This document shows positions 8,634 to 36,077 of a DNA stretch of 64,000 nucleotides, piece after piece. The position numbers and the translations under genes are program-made. Origin of the DNA: Spiroplasma endosymbiont of Cantharis nigra (GTDB lineage Bacteria > Bacillota_I > Bacilli_A > Mycoplasmatales > Mycoplasmataceae). The DNA lies in assembly GCF_964019925.1 (NCBI RefSeq), contig NZ_OZ026470.1, positions 744,001 to 808,000 of the forward strand. The letters are read 5' to 3'. Each line of letters begins with the position of its first letter. Position 1 is the stretch's first letter. Below the pieces are notes generated by a model. The model was not told where the DNA came from and searched no databases. It was given only the letters and a program-made list of their open reading frames with translations.

Positions 8634-9674
8634 TTATTCAATACTTTCTTTAAGTTTAGCTTGAATCTCAAAGTATTTTTCTGGATTATTATTAAATCAT
8701 TCCCTCACTGATTCTTTTCCTTGACCAATTTTTTCTTCACCATATGAATATCAAACTCCAGCTTTATTTAAAATATTATATATTGTAGCCATTTCAATAA
8801 TTTCAAGATCTTTTTCTACACCTTTATTATATGCAATAGTAATTTGACAAGTTTTAAAAGGCGGTGCAACTTTATTTTTTACAACTTTAATTTTAACTTT
8901 ATTTGCAGTTGCCTCACCATTTGTAGATATTGTTTCTCCTTTTCTTACTTCTAATCTTATAGATGAATAAAATCTTAAAGCTCTTCCACCAGGAGTTATT
9001 TCAGGACTTCCAAATATGACACCAACTTTTTCTCTCAATTGATTAATAAAAATTACTGTAGTATTAGTTTTCGAAACTATACCATTAATTTTCCTTAAAG
9101 CTTTTGACATCAATCTTGCTTGTAACCCAATTTGTTGATCTGACATTTCACCATCCAATTCTGCTTTAGGAACTAAAGCAGCAACAGAGTCAACTACAAC
9201 TATATCAATAGTATTCGATTTAATTAACATTTCTAAAATATCTAAAGCCTGTTCACCTGAATCAGGTTGAGCCACAACTAAATTTTTAATATCTATACCA
9301 ATATTTTGAGCATACTTTGGGTCTAATGCATGCTCTGCATCAATAAAAGCTGCCCTACCATTATTTTTTTGTGCTTCACAAATTGCATGTAAAGAAAGTG
9401 TAGTTTTACCACTTGATTCTGGTCCATAAATTTCTATAATTCTACCCTTAGGATATCCTCCTACGCCAATAGCTCTGTCAAGTAAAAAACTACCTGTTGG
9501 AATAACTTCAATTGCTGAATTAGCAGCATCTCCTAATTTCATAATTGATCCTTTTCCAAAAGTTTTTTCAATATCTTTTAATACACTTTTAAAAGCAGGA
9601 TCATCATAAATATTATTATCACTCATATTTAAAAGCACCTCATTTGTATTTTTCTCTAATATTTTTTCTATCAT
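8634..9674 (-). CDS. recA: recombinase RecA
   Basis: ATP-dependent strand-exchange protein for homologous recombination. 346 residues with the full core: Walker [13 protein letters not shown]-binding loop region [16 protein letters not shown], and [13 protein letters not shown]. Two TGA-Trp codons lie in the last 40 residues, so a standard-code reading would wrongly truncate it. The ATG at 9674 has a strong GGAGG 8 bases upstream. An internal ATG at 9626 (MSDNN) also has GAGGTG upstream and gives a 330-residue form. Intact recA is notable because some spiroplasmas (S. citri) carry a truncated copy. Follows the CinA-like gene. Confidence 0.96.
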
Positions 9675-16648: not shown

Positions 16649-17671
16649 TTAATAACTTATTTCTTCTTTTACTCTTCTTAATTGATCAAATACTTCTGAT
16701 TGATATTTTTTTGTTCCATTAATAACAGCTAATAATGGTTGTTCTCCAACTTTAGTTGGCAACTGTAAAGTATCTCCAACATATTTTGCAATACCATTAA
16801 TTAGTGCTGTTCCACCACATAATACTATTCCATTTCTGAAGATATCTCCAGCTAATTCTGGAGGTGTCATCTCAAGAACTTGAACTATTAATTCAATAAC
16901 TCTTGATAAAGGAACTTTTAATACTTCTCTTAATTCTTCTGGTGTAATTTCAATTTCTCTTGGTAACCCAGAAACAACGTCACGTCCATAAACTTTCATT
17001 GATTTTTCATCAATAAATTTAGCAAGTGAACCAATATTAATTTTGATAATCTCTGCTGTTTTAATTCCAATTTCCATTCCATATTGTGCTCTTATGAATT
17101 TTAAAATTTCTTCATTTAAATAGTTACCTGCTATTTTAATAGATTTTGAAATAACTATATCTCCAGATGAAATAACTGCAACATCAGTTGTTCCACCACC
17201 CATGTCAACAACAAGTCTTCCTGTAGGAGCATTAATGTTAACTCCTCCACCTAAAGCAGCCATTTTTACTTCTTCTTCAATAAATACTTCTCCTGCTCCT
17301 AAACTAATTGCAATTTTTTTAAGTGCTGTTTTTTCTAATTGAGTAATTGCTGATGGACAAGCCAATAACATTACACAATTTTTAAGAGTCTTTTCTAATC
17401 TAAGTCTTGCAAAAATATAATTTAATTGAGCTTGAGTAGCTTTGATATCAGTAATAACACCATCAACCATTGGTCTAACAATTCTCAGGTTTTTATTTCC
17501 TTTACCAATCATTTTATATGCTTCTGCACCAACTGCTATAATTTTATTTTCCTTAATTTTGTAAGCTACTATTGAAGGTTCATTATAAACTATTCCGTTT
17601 CCTTCAATATAAACTAATGTATATGCTGTTCCTAAGTCCATAGAAACAAATACTGGTTTTTTTCCTGCCAT
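16649..17671 (-). CDS. mreB: actin-like cell shape protein MreB
   Basis: Bacterial actin homologue. 340 residues. Phosphate-1 motif MDLGTAYTLVY at residues 10-20, phosphate-2 region DMGGGTTDVAVIS near 160, and adenosine motif GIVLCGGTALINGI near 295. Start at MAGKK (17671) has GAGGT 10 bases upstream; a start at 17710 would add 13 residues. Spiroplasmas use several MreB paralogues for helical shape and swimming; this copy is isolated, not in the multi-mreB cluster. Its presence is the main marker for Spiroplasma in this window. Confidence 0.95.
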   Translation of the reverse strand: MAGKKPVFVSMDLGTAYTLVYIEGNGIVYNEPSIVAYKIKENKIIAVGAEAYKMIGKGNKNLRIVRPMVDGVITDIKATQAQLNYIFARLRLEKTLKNCVMLLACPSAITQLEKTALKKIAISLGAGEVFIEEEVKMAALGGGVNINAPTGRLVVDMGGGTTDVAVISSGDIVISKSIKIAGNYLNEEILKFIRAQYGMEIGIKTAEIIKINIGSLAKFIDEKSMKVYGRDVVSGLPREIEITPEELREVLKVPLSRVIELIVQVLEMTPPELAGDIFRNGIVLCGGTALINGIAKYVGDTLQLPTKVGEQPLLAVINGTKKYQSEVFDQLRRVKEEISY

Positions 17672-27828: not shown

Positions 27829-30618
27829 TTAATAATTATAATTTGTACTTATTTTGGAATAAAATATATCTCCAACTATACCATCATTATAAATAGGTTG
27901 TATTCCTAAATATATATAATTTTCTGAGTTTTCATTAAGTTCTCTAATATAGTGACTATTTAAATTATTTTGACCTTGATAATATCATTTTCTACCATCG
28001 GTTGAGTAATAAATTTGAAAATAACTTGCACTTGAATTATTTGTTTCTCAATTAAATCTAATATTTATATTATTATTATTTGTTTCTCTTTTAACAATAT
28101 ATTCACTATTTATTTTTGATACTATTGTTTCTTGATTAGAATCAATCTCATCCTTATTAATTTCAAATCCACCAACAGAAAAAATAAAATTATTATTATT
28201 CTGTGGATTAATTTTTAATCCAAGTTTAGCAATTCTATTATCTTTATTTATTCCTCGAGCAGATGATAAATCAGCACTAATTTTATATCACCCATCATTA
28301 CTTTTCTCTTCAATGATTGTATCAATGCTTTTAGGTCCTTCATTTAATTTAGAATCCGTATATGTTATTTGAGTATTATTTAAAATATCTTCTAATTGTG
28401 AATTTGAAGACTTACCTATTTTATCTTCATCACTTGCCTTTATATAAAAACTTACCTTATAATTACTTTTACTCAAATTAGTTCCCATTAAATTTCAAAA
28501 ATAGTCATTATTTGATCATATACCAGGCATAACTTTTCCATCGTTATTAAAGTCATAACCCATTCCTATTGATATAGAGTTACCCTTCATATAAGGATTG
28601 TAATAATCATAATATGGCGCTAACTGACCTTTGTTATTTATTTGACTTACAAATTTTTCTCCGTCATTTGTTTTTATTGAGTTTGTATCTGATTTTTTTA
28701 TTGAACTTCAAAAATCTCATTGGTAAGTAGGATTTGAATCTGCAATTCTGGAGTTAGTTCATGGATTAATTTTGTCATAAATAATTTCATTATTACCATC
28801 TCTATTTATAAAATATATTCCTGACCCTGTTGAAAAATAGGTTTTCATAGATGGATCATTTTCAATTTCTTCAGGTTGCTTATCAGAAAACTCACTATAG
28901 TTATTATCAATAATTCTATCTGCAACTATTGTTTTTTCTAAAAAACTATTACCTATTCCATAACTCTTATTGTACTTACCATTATTATTTAAAATAAAGT
29001 TACTTTTATAAGCTTCATTTCAATTTTTGTCCTCTGAATTAAAAGAATCAAATTTAATTCTTGGATCAGACATATAAATAGCTTCAATATTTTGTTGTCC
29101 TTGCCCAATCATCATATCGTATCCTTCAGCATCATTTTCTAAATAACCATTTTTACCAGTCATTTGATAAGTGGAATAGAGATTTGATATTTCTTGTTGC
29201 ATTATTAAATACTTATATAGATCCTTTTCTTTCCAAATATTTTTTGCTTTTAAAAAGTTTTTAAAGGACTTTGAATATTCATTTGCTCCACCAGATCCAA
29301 ATATTGAAAAAGAATTATTAGGTTCATTATCATATTCATTTAAATTATTTTTATTAAATATTTGATTTCTATAATCATAGGCTCCAACACTAGGAATAGT
29401 AATACTTTCATTTAATAATGTATAAGCATTTTTTCTAGCTTCATTATTACCATTGTGTTCTGAACTTATATATTGATTAAGATTAGGAGTTGAAATACCA
29501 AAATCTAGTTGTATAGCACTAGCACTTCTAGAGGCATCAACTGTCTTTTTAGAATTTGGTCGAGATGAAACTTTATCATATTCTAAACTTCCATCATTTG
29601 TATAATAAACAATTGATAATCTTCTTCCAATTTTATCTTCTATTTTTTTTGCTTCCCTATTAAACTGCTCCATTATTTTATTTATTTCTGAATTTTTAAT
29701 AACATACCCATCGCCTTGAGATCCATTTGCTTCATTATTTATTATTCAACCATCAAAATTAAATTTTATACATTGTTGAATTAAAATATCTACCATTTTA
29801 TAATTGCCATTTGAATCAATCTCTAGAATACTTTTTAGAGATTCTCTAGTTAAATCTTCTCAACCAGACATATATCAAAGACCTAATACTGGAACACCAT
29901 TTTTGTGCATATATTCACTATAATCTGCAAATGATGGAGTTAATCAACCTTTATTTGTTATTGCTGGTCAAGTATACATTTGATGCATATAACTTAAATT
30001 TGTTAGGTTACCACCAAATGGATTTTTTGTTCCTAAAATAGAACTTGATGAACTTGAAGGAGCATGAAACATATTGAAAAAACTACTTTTTTGTTGATTT
30101 TTTACAGTGCTTTTTGCAACATAATTTCTACCTCTTAACTTTTCTTTTGATATATTATATTTTAAATCCATATCTTTACCATCATTTCAAGTGGGAAGTG
30201 AATTAATATAATTAAATTTTCTAGACCTAGATTGAATTCCAAAATCTAATCACTTATTTCCATTTGGTCTATATGATTTTATTATTGGTGAACCTGTAGC
30301 TCCTTGTTTTTTTATAAAATTTGCTCCTTTATATGATGTAGCATAATTGTCATAGTCAAAAATTTTATCAACTACACCATTTGAGGAATCAGTTTTTTTA
30401 AAAAGTGAATCATTAAAATCAATTCCATTTTTATCAAATTGATCATAAAATCAATTATAACCATCTCCATCTTCTGTTTCTCCTGTACTTCAATTAAACT
30501 CAGGTAATCCTTCAATATAATTTCTTGTTGTTATATCTCCGATGTTACAAGATACAGCGCTTAAAGAAGCTCCTGAAATAATAAAACCTACTAATAGTAA
30601 TTCAATTATTTTTTTCAT
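27829..30618 (-). CDS. GH85 endo-beta-N-acetylglucosaminidase lipoprotein
   Basis: 929 residues. The signal peptide ends SAVSC, predicting lipidation at Cys24 and exposure on the cell surface. The GH85 core includes GVPVLGLWYMSGWEDL (residues 241-256) and FDGWIINNE (288-296). GH85 enzymes use an Asn-x-Glu pair for substrate-assisted cleavage of the chitobiose core of N-glycans; here these are Asn294 and Glu296. The C-terminal ~250 residues look like beta-sandwich/fibronectin-like domains. More than a dozen Trp codons are TGA. The start overlaps the permease upstream by 13 bases. Substrate is inferred from the family. Confidence 0.85.
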
Positions 30619-31550
30619 ATTTTTTTATAACCTCCTTGCTTAATATTAATAAGCAGTGTAAAAAAAGAAATTCATAGCAATGACATAACATAAGTAATTG
30701 GCAATATGATATTTGCTTTATTCGTTAAAAATGTAAATGGAATTTCTAATTTTGGATTTACTATTGTTTGTAATATATTAATTTTATACATTGTTATGTT
30801 AGTAATTGAAGATAAAAATAATCATTGAAAGGATTTTATTGGCATCAAGTATCCAAATAAGTTTAATACAATAGCTGCCCTATTATTCGTTATTAAATTT
30901 ATATCAATTAAGCAATCTCCTAGTAATAAAAATACTATTATTATTATTAAATTTATTGATTGAATAATAATTAAATTTTTAAACAGCATCGACATTAAAT
31001 AACAAATGGCAAGTAGACATAACATATATAAGAATGAAGTAATTAACGAATTCAAAATACAAAAAAATAAATTAAAGTATTCTCATACATTATTATTAAT
31101 GAAAAATATTTTTTGCATTGAAATAAATAAATATTGAAAATTTTTAAAATACAAAAAGCTATCGATAATATTTGCAATAATTAAACAAAAAAATAAAGAT
31201 AAAAAAGTGATTAATAAGGTACAAATTAATATTGAAAAATATATTTTAAACTTATTTATTGCAAATATTTTAGCTTGTTTAACAAGAATACTTTGCTCTC
31301 AATTTGAAATCAATAAGGAGAAAGTAAATAAAGAAAAAGTAAAAGGTATTATAAATAAATTAAAAATCTGTCCACTACTTTCAATATAGTCTTTATTACC
31401 AAAAGATGTTTTAATTAAATATGCACTAATAAATATAAAAGTTGGTATTAATATTGCTAATACATATACTTTAAAGTTTTTAAATATAGTTTTAAAAACA
31501 TAGTTAAAAGTTGACCGAAATGATATATTGGATTTTAAAGAATTAAACAT
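30606..31550 (-). CDS. ABC-2-like transporter permease, subunit 2
   Basis: 314 residues with six predicted transmembrane segments and a first cytosolic stretch of about 30 residues, the layout of ABC-2 type export permeases. It is the last transporter gene before GH85 and overlaps its start by 13 bases. It follows the other permease by 7 bases. No close named family was recognised; substrate unknown. Read with TGA-Trp at several places, including near the end where IWKK precedes the stop. Confidence 0.72.
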
Positions 31551-31557
31551 ATTTTAC

Positions 31558-32415
31558 CTACTTTCATTTAAATAACTTAATTGATAGATACGTTAAGATT
31601 GATACTAAAATTAGAGAAATGACTACTAAAATATATATATTAGTAATAAATGTGTAACTATGATCATCAGAAATAATTTGTTTTATTCCACCTCTAAAAT
31701 CAACAAAGGTAAATGAAGCTGTAATTAGTAAAATTCAAACCATATACTTTGTTATTGAAATATAACCTAAGAAAGTTATAAATCAGCTCCTAGTAGAAAT
31801 AAACGAAGGTATAATAACGTCAGACATAATTAAATAAAAAATAATAATTAAAATTGGAACTACTGCTTGAATATTTTTTGAATTAAATAGATTCATAATT
31901 ATAACACAAGAAGAAAAAACAGTTATTTGAATTAAAATTGAGACAAAAATAAATCAAACCCAATTTCATCAAAATAAGTTTCCTAAATAATTAAAACTTA
32001 TTTTAAGCTGAACTTTAGAAATTAAATAGACAATTAATATATTTAAAAGTTCTGCAGCAAAAGTAAAACATGTAGAACAAATTATAATCGATAAAATAAT
32101 ATCATATGGCTTAGTACCTATAAATTTAAGTCTTTTAATTAAAGATGTTTCCTTTCATGAAAACAGCATACTAGAGAAATAAGCTCCAGTAACAAAAGAA
32201 GGAATCAGAAATAAAGAAGTCATCTGAGGTGGTAATAATTCAAATGTATTTGAATAATTTGTATAGCCTATAAAACAAATAATAGTAATTATTAATGAAG
32301 AAGCAAATATTATTATTCAAGCTCTTTCATTTCTTAAACTTAATGATGTTATTATTGATATTGTTCTTTTGAAATTACTAATTCCTATTTTAAAATTACT
32401 ATTATTTCTCATCAT
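31558..32415 (-). CDS. ABC-2-like transporter permease, subunit 1
   Basis: 285 residues with about six transmembrane segments. A cytosolic loop SMLFSWKETSLIKRLKFIG follows helix 2 and matches the ABC-2 pattern in which the cytosolic face contacts the ATPase. It begins inside the end of the ATPase gene (14-base overlap) and is followed closely by the second permease, so ATPase and two permeases make one transporter. Start could be 32415 or 32412 (two adjacent ATGs). Confidence 0.75.
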
Positions 32416-33118
32416 CAATTTCCTCATAATATTTTTCTAAAAAATATCTAATTGATCCATATTCTTTAATAATTTTTTTTACACTTTCATCCCTATAAAT
32501 TTCACCTTTATTTAAAACTATTATCCTATTACATATTTTTTCAATTTCTTCAGGTATATGAGATATTACTATTAAAGTAATATCTTCTTTTTTTCTTAAA
32601 TTATCAAAAAAATTAACTAGTTTGATTTGCATTTTTAAGTCAAGACCTGTTATTAATTCATCTAAAATTAATATTTTTGGTTTTTTAATTATTGATATCA
32701 TAGAGTTAAAGCGTTGTTGTTGACCACCAGATAAGTCACTTAATCTTTTAGTTAAAATATCTTCAACCTCAAATATATTAATTAACTCTTTTATATATTC
32801 GTCTTTATTTCATTTTTTTGAAATTAACAAATTAAGTAAATCTACCCCTCTTGTATTAAATGGTCAATCTCCTTTTTGAAATTGTATTCCAATACTCTCT
32901 TTAATTTTGTTATCAATTTCTTTATTTTCACTTATAAAATTTACTTTACCTTCTGTTGGTTCACTTATTCCAGATATTATTTCTATAAGAGTAGTTTTAC
33001 CACTACCATTTGCTCCTAAAATACCAATTGCTTCTCCTTTTGCAATTTCAAAATTTAGGTTTTTTAAAACTCATTTATTTTTTTCGAATTTTTTTGATAA
33101 ATTTTCTATTTTAATCAT
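32402..33118 (-). CDS. ABC transporter ATPase
   Basis: 238 residues, complete nucleotide-binding domain. Walker A GANGSGKTT at 35-43, signature LSGGQQQR near 132, Walker B ILILDELITGLD near 152 and switch His in VISH near 189. Walker B ends in Asp-Glu, so hydrolysis is expected. ATG at 33118 has GAGGT upstream. Pairs with the two permeases downstream. ABC-2 exporters can move polysaccharide, lipid, drug or peptide; nothing here fixes the cargo. Confidence 0.93.
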
Positions 33119-33128
33119 TTTTATACCT

Positions 33129-34457
33129 CTAACTCATTTCACTATTTGCAAAAAGCAATAAGTTTCACGTTCTTTGTGTAAAATCCTTAAGCTGAGTATT
33201 AAATTCTATTCAAGGATTAAACGGTAGTTCCTCTCTGTTTGAGTAGTTATTTGAAGTTTCTTCAATTTTATCAACAATAACTTTATCCTCATTTCCTTCT
33301 TCTGCTTTAATAAATTCAACTCAGTTATTTTGATCATAACTAATATAAATGTATCTATTATCTGATTTTCCTAAATCAAATAAAAAGATTCTTAAATCAT
33401 AAAATGAGTTATATTTATAGGCATAGTAAAGTAAAGACCCTGGACTATCTTGTCTATATTCTTTTCCCTTATTATTAAAAACATTATCTATTCCTTCTAA
33501 TGGTGCTGCTTTTTTTTGATACATTTCAGATTTTGGATCAATGAAATTAATATAATTTAAGGCAATCTCTGCATATATTTTTATTAAATTACTTGCAATA
33601 TAACACTGTAAATTTTCATTATTAGAATGATATTGATTTCAATCTCACAGTTTGAATTGAATAAAACTATCAACTTTATTATCCTGGATACTAATATTTA
33701 ATTCTTTTCTTCTATAATATGGATCAAATACATTTAAAGTTTCTTCTTCACCATTATTAATTTTCTTTTTTGCAAGAAAATTTAATTTAACTACCTGACC
33801 AATATCATTTTCATTAACTTCCTCATTTGTTTTAAAAAAAATATTATCCGTATTATTTAAATTCACTAAGTTAAAATACTCATTTCCTGATTCATCTATA
33901 AAAGAATCCTCTTGATTTATATTAATTATATCTAATATTTTTTTATCACTTATTGAACTTTGATTAACATATAATTTAAATCCACTTTCCTCTAAAGCAC
34001 TAAAATTAGATATTTCATATCTTTCAATTTCATGCAAGGGAGATGCAGATGGGCTATTATGTCCCATTACTTGTAAACCTAAATAAATTGCATCAACACG
34101 TTTACTTTTTATTCTTATTGGTTTTTTTTGCATTAAGTCAACACTAATTTCATCAACATTACCATTTTTAATTCTCTTTGCTTCATTTTCAAGCTCAACT
34201 TTATATTTTCAATCATAAGCAGCTGAGTAAGTTTGAGAAGAGTTTACAAGATTTTCTCAACTTGACCTATATTTTGGTTCTAAAGGAATATCTTTAAAAT
34301 TTAATAAATTATCAAGTGCACCTGATCTACCCTCCTCTTTATTTTTGATTGTAGTGGTAATCAAAAATAAGGAAGAATATAATGGTAATACTGTTAATGC
34401 TGAGATTGCAAATATTAAAAAAATTTTGCTTTTAAAATTAATGATTCCCGATTTCAT
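33129..34457 (-). CDS. unknown anchored exoprotein, first gene of the GH85 operon
   Basis: 442 residues, not recognised. One hydrophobic segment near the N-terminus (residues ~10-34, FLIFAISALTVLPLYSSLFL) with Lys before it suggests a signal anchor with the rest outside the cell. The outer part is rich in Asn, Asp, Glu and Tyr and looks beta-rich. There is no lipobox Cys. The start at 34457 has GAGGT 7 bases upstream. It is the gene nearest the poly(A)-spacer promoter and is 10 bases before the ATPase, so it is likely a surface partner of the transporter or the GH85 enzyme. Confidence 0.7.
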
Positions 34458-34485
34458 TTTTTTAACCTCTTTTATAACTTTTAAA

Positions 34486-34513
34486 ATTATAGACAAAAAA
34501 AAAAAAAAAACAA
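34486..34513 (-). promoter_or_regulatory. putative phase-variable promoter with poly(A/T) spacer
   Basis: Minus-strand -35 TTGTTT (34513-34508) and -10 TATAAT (34491-34486) are separated by 16 bases. A run of 16 A on the plus strand (34495-34510) fills almost the entire spacer and the end of the -35 box. Gain or loss of one base would change the spacer length. The -10 lies 28 bases before the start of the first gene of the operon. Confidence 0.6.
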
Positions 34514-34591
34514 TTCCCTATAACAGTATTTTTCATATCCGCATAATTTTAGCTACTTATAAATTTATTTAATAGCTATTTTAAATATTAA

Positions 34592-34621
34592 AAAAGAAAA
34601 CTCAAAATTAAGTTTTCTTTT
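34592..34621 (-). terminator. terminator of the dnk operon
   Basis: AAAAGAAAACT and AGTTTTCTTTT form an 11-bp perfect stem with an 8-base loop and a T-run on the minus strand. Confidence 0.8.
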
Positions 34622-34709
34622 CAATTTATATAGAATATTTAGAAAGTCCTTTAATAAAAATATTTATATTTATTAAATACAACCTTTATATTGGAAGATT
34701 ATACAAGTT

Positions 34710-35327
34710 TTATTTTACTAATTTTGGATCTATAGAATAAATTTTATTCATAATAAAGTCCATTTTTGTTTCTAAATTGTCTGTTTCCGCATCTACTACC
34801 AAAAAATCAAACATATGTTTTCTTCTTTCAAAGAAATCATCATATTTTTTATTTAATGTTTCTCAATATTGTTTTGGAGTATTAAGTTCTTGACTTCTTC
34901 CTCTCTCTTTAATTCTTTGGATTGCTTTGTTGGTTGAAACTTTTAAATAAATTACCAAATCAAATGTTGCTCTATGCGCCAAATTTGGAATAACAACATG
35001 CTCATAAAAATCAGTGTAAGTTTTATAATCAATATCATTCATTGTTTTTAATTCATGATTAACTGCAACAAAAATTGGGTCTTCCAAAATTGTTCTATCA
35101 AAAATTACATTTTCCAAAGATTTTGCTGCAATTAATTGTTGACTTCTTGCAGTAAGCATATATATTTGCATTTTAAATACATTAGCTTCCATATCTTTAT
35201 AATAATCATCAAAGTATGGATTATTATCAATTGGTTCTGGAAATATTTCATAACCTAGTCTTTTTGAAATCTCTTCACTAATAGTTGATTTACCTGCACC
35301 AACTGTTCCAAAAATAGCTATTCTCAT
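34710..35327 (-). CDS. dnk: deoxynucleoside kinase (dAdo/dGuo type)
   Basis: Salvage kinase that phosphorylates deoxyadenosine and/or deoxyguanosine. 205 residues. P-loop FGTVGAGKST at 6-15, the FPEP acidic substrate motif at 29-32, FDRTILED (DRS-like motif, near 76) and RIKERGR lid near 140 are all present. The start lies immediately after the rluB stop (TAAATG), so it is coupled. A TGA-Trp occurs at KQYWETLN. Which deoxynucleoside is preferred cannot be told. Confidence 0.93.
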
Positions 35328-36077
35328 TTATTTACCCCTCTTAATTTTCAATGAATTATAAATTCCATAAAACTGCTTAATTTCATGTGATTTTAGTTCT
35401 CTAAATTTACCAATTGGTAAATCATCAATTGTTAAAAACTCTATTTGAGTTCTTTTTAATTTTCTCAAATAGATATCTGCTGCAACTAACATTTTTTTTA
35501 CGTGATGTTTTCTTCCCTCTGCAATTGTTAATTCAATAACAGATTCATCATACTCTTCATCATATTTAAGTAATCTTGCTTGAATTGCTTTTGTTTTGTA
35601 ATCATCATCTATAATTACACCATCTACCAATTTTTTAATTTGATACTTATGAACCTTTCCTTTACATAATGCCTGATATGTTTTTCTAAATTCATATTTC
35701 GGATGCATTACAAAGTTTGCAAATTCTCCATCATTTGTCATGATTAAAGCTCCCGATACATCATAGTCAAGTCTTCCTACTGGATATACTCTTAATTTTG
35801 AATCTTTAAAAAATTCTGCTACAGTTTTCCTGTCTTTTGGATCGTGCATTGTTGTTAATACTAATCTAGGTTTGTTAAACAAATAATAAACCTTTTCTTT
35901 ATTCTCATCCAGATTTTTATTATTAATATCAATTTTTACATTTGTATCAAATTTTGAACCCATTTCTCTAATAACAGTTCCATTAACTTTTACTCTACCT
36001 TGTTCAATTAATCTTTCTGCTTGTCTTCTTGAACAATAACCTCTAGTGGCTATTATTTTTTGTAATCTTTCTTCCAT
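35328..36077 (-). CDS. rluB: 23S rRNA pseudouridine synthase RluB-like
   Basis: 249 residues. N-terminal S4 RNA-binding domain (ERLQKIIATRGYCSRRQAERLIEQG split across residues 2-28) followed by the RsuA/RluB catalytic domain with PVGRLDYDVSGALIMTNDG, containing the catalytic Asp near residue 105. EGRKHHVKKML matches the family. scpB-rluB adjacency is conserved in Firmicutes. Its start overlaps scpB by one base. Confidence 0.93.
   Translation of the reverse strand: MEERLQKIIATRGYCSRRQAERLIEQGRVKVNGTVIREMGSKFDTNVKIDINNKNLDENKEKVYYLFNKPRLVLTTMHDPKDRKTVAEFFKDSKLRVYPVGRLDYDVSGALIMTNDGEFANFVMHPKYEFRKTYQALCKGKVHKYQIKKLVDGVIIDDDYKTKAIQARLLKYDEEYDESVIELTIAEGRKHHVKKMLVAADIYLRKLKRTQIEFLTIDDLPIGKFRELKSHEIKQFYGIYNSLKIKRGK

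Follow-up and report, generated by a model that had tools for sequence, protein, structure and literature searches.

Most of what is known of phase variation in Mollicutes comes from pathogens of vertebrates. Mycoplasma hyorhinis switches its vlp genes at the promoter (Citti and Wise 1995, as cited in PMC10502178), and in Mycoplasma mycoides slippage of a TA dinucleotide repeat in the promoter spacer acts on the lipoprotein gene vmm (Persson 2002, cited in PMC10502178 and PMC3053259). A homopolymer also underlies phase variation of an ABC-transporter operon in Mycoplasma fermentans, where the p78 system works by a frameshift in a coding A7 (Theiss and Wise 1997, as cited in PMC2831843), and in Helicobacter pylori slippage in a T run tunes the sabA promoter as a rheostat (PMC4081817). 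For Spiroplasma, no paper on a slippage-promoter switch was among the matches listed in one open-access library. Here we describe a T16 run in the predicted promoter of a five-gene operon that ends in a GH85 glycosidase gene. We read it as probably a switch of the vlp type that works by slippage in the promoter spacer, its coding strand having T where vlp has A, and as one of a genus-wide set of such runs.

The window is the whole 64-kb stretch of DNA that was analysed. On its minus strand, a TTGTTT hexamer (34513-34508), the predicted -35 box, and a TATAAT hexamer (34491-34486), the predicted -10 box, stand 16 bases apart; direct reading of the letters confirmed this spacing, which had been proposed in a sequence-only reading of the same DNA. 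The spacer between the two boxes (34507-34492, minus strand) is TTTTTTTTTTTTTGTC, i.e. T13-GTC. The homopolymer itself (34495..34510; T16 on the minus strand, A16 on the plus strand) provides the last three bases of TTGTTT, which are its first three, and 13 of the 16 spacer bases. The earlier description of a 16-base A/T run filling the spacer was right about the run, which is real, and inexact about its limits, as three of its bases lie in the -35 box and GTC stands before the -10 box. It is the only A/T run in the window longer than 8, all others reaching 8 at most, and one of 34 long runs genome-wide. From the -10 box, which is identical in the close relative G009, there are 28 bases to the ATG of gene 1 at 34457, and 37 bases separate the run from this ATG, so that the placement directly upstream of the operon is borne out as well. 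TTGTTT is a poor -35 box. Because it agrees with TTGACA at just three of six positions, a consensus promoter scanner missed the TTGTTT/TATAAT site, which was not among its predictions. Promoter-like sites were not overrepresented in the scanner output for the region (14 vs 22.4 expected), and no Rfam element matched positions 33900-35400 at gathering thresholds.

The predicted promoter is followed by five codirectional genes on the minus strand, neighbours of which overlap or sit 7 bases apart. Gene 1 (33129..34457) encodes a 442-aa protein with a single hydrophobic segment, at the N-terminus; it matched no family in Pfam or NCBIfam and aligns from residue 1 with its homologs in G009 and G018. 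Gene 2 (32402..33142) encodes an ABC transporter ATPase (Pfam ABC_tran, E 3.1e-26), and genes 3 (31558..32427) and 4 (30606..31550) encode membrane proteins with 7 and 8 hydrophobic segments, respectively, both probable permeases with no Pfam match. Gene 5 (27829..30618) is a GH85 endo-beta-N-acetylglucosaminidase (Pfam Glyco_hydro_85, E 4.6e-13) with the lipoprotein-type signal LSAVSC, and the enzyme is likely surface-anchored. It aligns to the solved GH85 structure 3fha and retains the N-x-E motif, which we take to be the catalytic motif of the family. On the same strand, the upstream dNK gene has a probable terminator at 34585..34625, a hairpin followed by T6 (-12.7 kcal/mol, z -4.8); the hairpin was absent from the consensus scanner output. 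Since the dNK gene probably ends at this hairpin and T6, transcription of the operon most likely starts from a promoter of its own.

Comparison with homologous operons also points to a promoter at this place. The G018 ortholog has TTGACA-17-TATAAT at the same position, 18 bases before the start codon and with no T run; when its 150 upstream bases were shuffled 20000 times, 6 of the shuffles contained such a match. In G015, the sequence before the homologous operon reads TTGATT-16-TATAAT and includes T16. These two promoters are the best evidence that the run probably sits in a real promoter, and the earlier proposal that it lies within a promoter spacer is supported by the G015 arrangement together with the retention of T16 in the close relative. 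Among the six operons with a gene-1 homolog, three have the run before gene 1 (our genome, G009, and G015), and in the operon homologs of G018, G011, and G010 the run is absent.

Long T runs form a distinct class in this genome and in the genus, which we take to be Spiroplasma from the genetic code (TGA=Trp) and the lipoprotein signals. The 1.24-Mb genome (1,237 kb) contains 34 bounded T runs of at least 10 bases, all 34 of which are at least 15 and none at least 18; there are no runs of 10-14, and every long run measures 15-17. In 20 genomes of the genus, 615 runs reach at least 10 bases, 525 at least 15, and 54 at least 18, or, by length, 90 runs of 10-14, 471 of 15-17, and 54 of 18 or more. 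Runs of at least 15 are present in 19 of the 20 genomes (0 to 83 per genome), with none in G010, and in G006 18 of 21 runs measure 18 or more. The usual run length seems to differ by species. The scarcity of runs of 10-14, missing in our genome and few in the genus, beside the common lengths of 15-17, suggests a set point that may vary by species.

The long runs differ from shorter ones in where they lie. With genes defined as mechanical open reading frames rather than by annotation, 32 of the 34 long runs are intergenic, compared with 244 of 1047 control runs of T7-8; the controls come from the window and from stretches selected around the long runs, 406 kb of the 1,237-kb genome in all, with 9 control runs at stretch edges excluded. 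Reading along the T strand, 22 of the 32 intergenic long runs have a start codon 15-150 bases ahead of them vs 73 of the 244 controls (Fisher 4e-5); along the A strand, just 4 of the intergenic long runs are placed in this way. Sequence context separates the classes further. A TTG at or up to 2 bases before the run occurs in 13 of the 22 promoter-placed long runs compared with 6 of 73 controls (2e-6), and in 1 of the 12 long runs that lie elsewhere. At spacer 15-19, 8 of the 14 TTG-preceded runs are followed by a -10 box with at least 5 of 6 matches vs 13 of 73 controls (p 0.004); ignoring TTG, the -10 excess is weak (12/22 vs 22/73, p 0.045). In other species, a -10 box at spacer 15-19 was found for 11 of 27 TTGC runs vs 19 of 176 T7-8 runs (3e-4), the controls being T7-8 runs at any position within the same loci and the 27 loci coming from 30 sampled out of 54 sites, from which 3 own-genome loci were removed. 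These 54 TTGC-T15 sites occur in 13 of the 20 genus genomes, with no site for the mirror pattern, and TTGC-A15, the vlp orientation, has 17 sites in 11 genus genomes. The AACG-T15 mirror control gave 21 sites, found only in G013 and G019 of the 20 genomes and perhaps part of a repeated element. Palindromic tracts were also seen, T16-A17 at 16666-16698 of locus L077 and T16-A18 at 9255-9288 of locus L105.

Of the 22 genes downstream of the promoter-placed runs, seven have an MKKLL-type lipoprotein N-terminus; a lipobox pattern is likewise found in seven of the 22, and an eighth gene (576735) appears lipoprotein-like by eye. The set also includes three RpiR-type regulators, a transketolase, a short-chain dehydrogenase (SDR), an ABC ATPase, the GH85 operon at 34457, and a GH85 lipoprotein at 505623-508163. 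Two phosphotransferase proteins are encoded downstream of runs, one of which best matches an N-acetylglucosamine IIBC model, below the cut-off of that model. The second GH85 gene of the genome also has a long run, but with no TTG before it and a -10 box of only 4 of 6. T15-17 lies within 150 bases upstream of 7 of 34 GH85 genes, this set being those of at least 500 codons in the examined stretches rather than every GH85 match, and all 7 run-bearing genes fall in the group of 22 genes nearer the second GH85 gene.

Conservation of the run differs between downstream genes. The SDR gene (own genome run 399284) has T15-17 in 8 of 8 orthologs (81-99% identity), 124-156 bases before the start, and in 0 of 5 paralogs, which makes it the best conserved of the runs. 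In our genome, however, no -10 box matching 5 of 6 positions was found for it at spacer 15-19, and the use of this run may therefore differ. Directly after T15-17, the SDR orthologs (L332-L339) have a hairpin that is kept in all 8; both of its sides have changed with pairing kept at 7 of 10 pairs, the TCCTATT loop is invariant, and the element is possibly an operator or a structured leader. For the nag-type PTS gene, which was compared in 17 genomes, six have T15, 16, 17, 18, 18, and 26 at 34-40 bases from the start, two have T10 and T5AT7 (39 and 51 bases away), and one has T9. Three further genomes have one tract each, T17 (135 bases away), T8AT8 (75 bases), and A17 (97 bases), and in five of the 17 genomes there is no run.

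The comparison with G009, which is 95.3% identical to our genome over 154,259 aligned columns, shows how often these runs change. Seven of the 15 cleanly matched long runs are one base different between the two genomes. Adding three less clean pairs (T16 to T17 at 323324, T16 in both at 262557, and T17 in both at 267063) brings this to 8 of 18, and a strict count gives 5 of 9. By the strict count, short runs of 5, 6, 7, and 8 bases changed in 9 of 797, 10 of 351, 9 of 168, and 7 of 46 cases, a difference rate of 1-15%. In G009, a single A interrupts three of our 34 runs, and a fourth is T10. For the runs at 282366, 379294, 514419, and 905299, a match to G009 was obtained on one flank, and the sequence next to this flank showed no run; the remaining runs were without a usable match in the G009 pieces compared, which cover 53 loci rather than the whole genome. 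The run of the GH85 operon is T16 in both genomes. The earlier idea of a length-variable tract finds support in the class, which changes far more often than short runs do; this particular tract has the same length in both close species.

What holds these runs near 16 bears directly on the main alternative, in which slippage keeps long T runs near this length at any site that tolerates them, promoter activity is much the same from T15 to T17, and no switching takes place. Of the 22 promoter-placed long runs, one is T15, fifteen are T16, and six are T17, and the 12 runs outside promoter position are all T16. Because these 12 have the same length, something besides promoter spacing must help to set it; selection on promoters is rejected as the only cause of length 16, and a slippage equilibrium, rather than a spacing optimum, accounts at least in part for the value near 16. 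For the same reason, a length of 16 does not by itself prove a switch. The passive account also draws on the narrow clustering of lengths with an apparently species-typical value, as in G006, on the three of six operon homologs that do without the run, and on at least one non-promoter run that lies behind a strong terminator-like stem. We nevertheless consider it unlikely, given the strong enrichment of the class before genes and after TTG and the retention of the SDR run in every ortholog and no paralog. In addition, spacer length matters in sigma-70-type promoters. Mapped promoters of Spiroplasma melliferum have a pronounced TTGACA -35 box and thus retain a -35 element (PMC5138195). Three T16 runs of contig C1 stand behind terminator-like stems, at 310345 (16 pairs) and at 917114 and 983787 (5 pairs each); the two 5-pair stems are weak, near p 0.05, and both of these runs are T8AT6 in G009.

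Run length could instead act in graded steps on DNA shape or polymerase contact, as in sabA, and not on/off via spacing. The T-tracts of sabA are commonly T13 to T17, and their length gives a multiphasic output (PMC4081817), which suits the lengths seen here. On the other hand, the sabA run adjoins the -35 box and acts via upstream elements, whereas the run of the GH85 operon lies between the boxes, where its length alters spacing directly, and we judge a graded effect of this kind improbable. A run serving as the terminator tail of the upstream gene, or as a frameshift run in the reading frame of gene 1, is very improbable. The stem at 310345 is an example in this genome of a T16 run that follows a strong stem, but no stem was found ending at the GH85-operon run, and the dNK terminator, a separate hairpin, is at least 75 bases upstream, which disfavours a terminator tail. 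For the frameshift, an in-frame TAG directly precedes the run, which in turn ends 37 bases before the ATG; a coding switch of the p78 or vaa type from the ATG used here is therefore excluded. Finally, real lengths might differ and cluster at 16 through read processing. Homopolymer lengths are error-prone, and one recent paper on Spiroplasma proposes that assembly artefacts may account for most of the indels it reports, which are in homopolymers (PMC12408004). Yet the class is found in 19 of the 20 genus genomes and at conserved places, and interrupted forms such as T8AT6 are no length error, which makes an artefact the hardest of these explanations to credit.

We therefore return to promoter-spacer slippage as the preferred reading. 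Replication slippage would add or remove T within the run, and each gain or loss would likely change the distance between the -35 and -10 boxes, turning the operon up or down in individual cells. The assembled spacer is 16, and one extra T would make it 17, as in the fixed consensus promoter of G018. Slippage of the T16 run would probably alter the spacing in this way and so switch or tune the whole GH85 operon in single cells. We infer that the promoter at 34486-34513 is used, that run length affects transcription, and that switching is reversible within a clone. The run is one of a genus-wide T15-17 class, mostly promoter-placed, before lipoprotein, glycosidase, phosphotransferase, and sugar-regulator genes. 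A wider proposal, which we advance tentatively as a real possibility, is that much of the surface and sugar biology of Spiroplasma is run through genome-wide poly-T contingency promoters that form one stochastic repertoire, with a length set point specific to each species. Such a repertoire would pair N-glycan release (two GH85 loci), sugar uptake by phosphotransferase systems, RpiR-type regulators, and many lipoproteins. It would operate in organisms that have few transcription factors and lack mismatch repair; the absence of mutS and mutL throughout Spiroplasma is reported in PMC8208695.

If true, surface bet-hedging would also shape insect symbiosis, here in a wall-less bacterium of a probably arthropod-associated genus. 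A conserved set of slippage-prone promoters would, in addition, name the genes to watch, and testing the idea would cost little, since deep reads allow a direct count of the runs. As far as the literature was searched, two features are new: a T form that makes up a class across the genus, and the presence of such runs at GH85 glycosidase loci.

Among the described systems, vlp offers the most points of comparison. In an M. hyorhinis assembly reached through locus L269, TTGC-A19 precedes a gene (L318) whose product begins with a lipoprotein N-terminus of the vlp type, and we presume from this signal sequence that it is a vlp gene. The likeness to vlp that had been suggested for the GH85 operon agrees with the layout of this gene. 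In both cases, a homopolymer lies in the promoter before surface genes of a Mollicute, here between predicted rather than mapped -35 and -10 boxes (TTGTTT, T13-GTC, TATAAT), and a surface lipoprotein gene stands behind the promoter, here GH85 with its LSAVSC lipobox. The TTGC-T15 sites of this genus likewise resemble L318, where TTGC directly precedes the run. The differences are that the coding strand has T here and A in vlp, that vlp is one antigen family whereas the T runs stand before genes of unrelated kinds, a glycosidase-transporter operon among them, and that switching is reported for vlp and here predicted from sequence. The other systems show partial likenesses. The vmm promoter shares spacer slippage at a Mollicute lipoprotein gene but has a different repeat and a different gene; p78 shares a homopolymer and an ABC-transporter operon, but its change falls in coding sequence and not in promoter spacing; and the sabA run is of similar length but lies next to the -35 box, outside the spacer, whereas the run of the GH85 operon is inside it. 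Because the layout is the same as that of vlp, with A in place of T, we rate the locus as a variant of vlp-type promoter-spacer switching.
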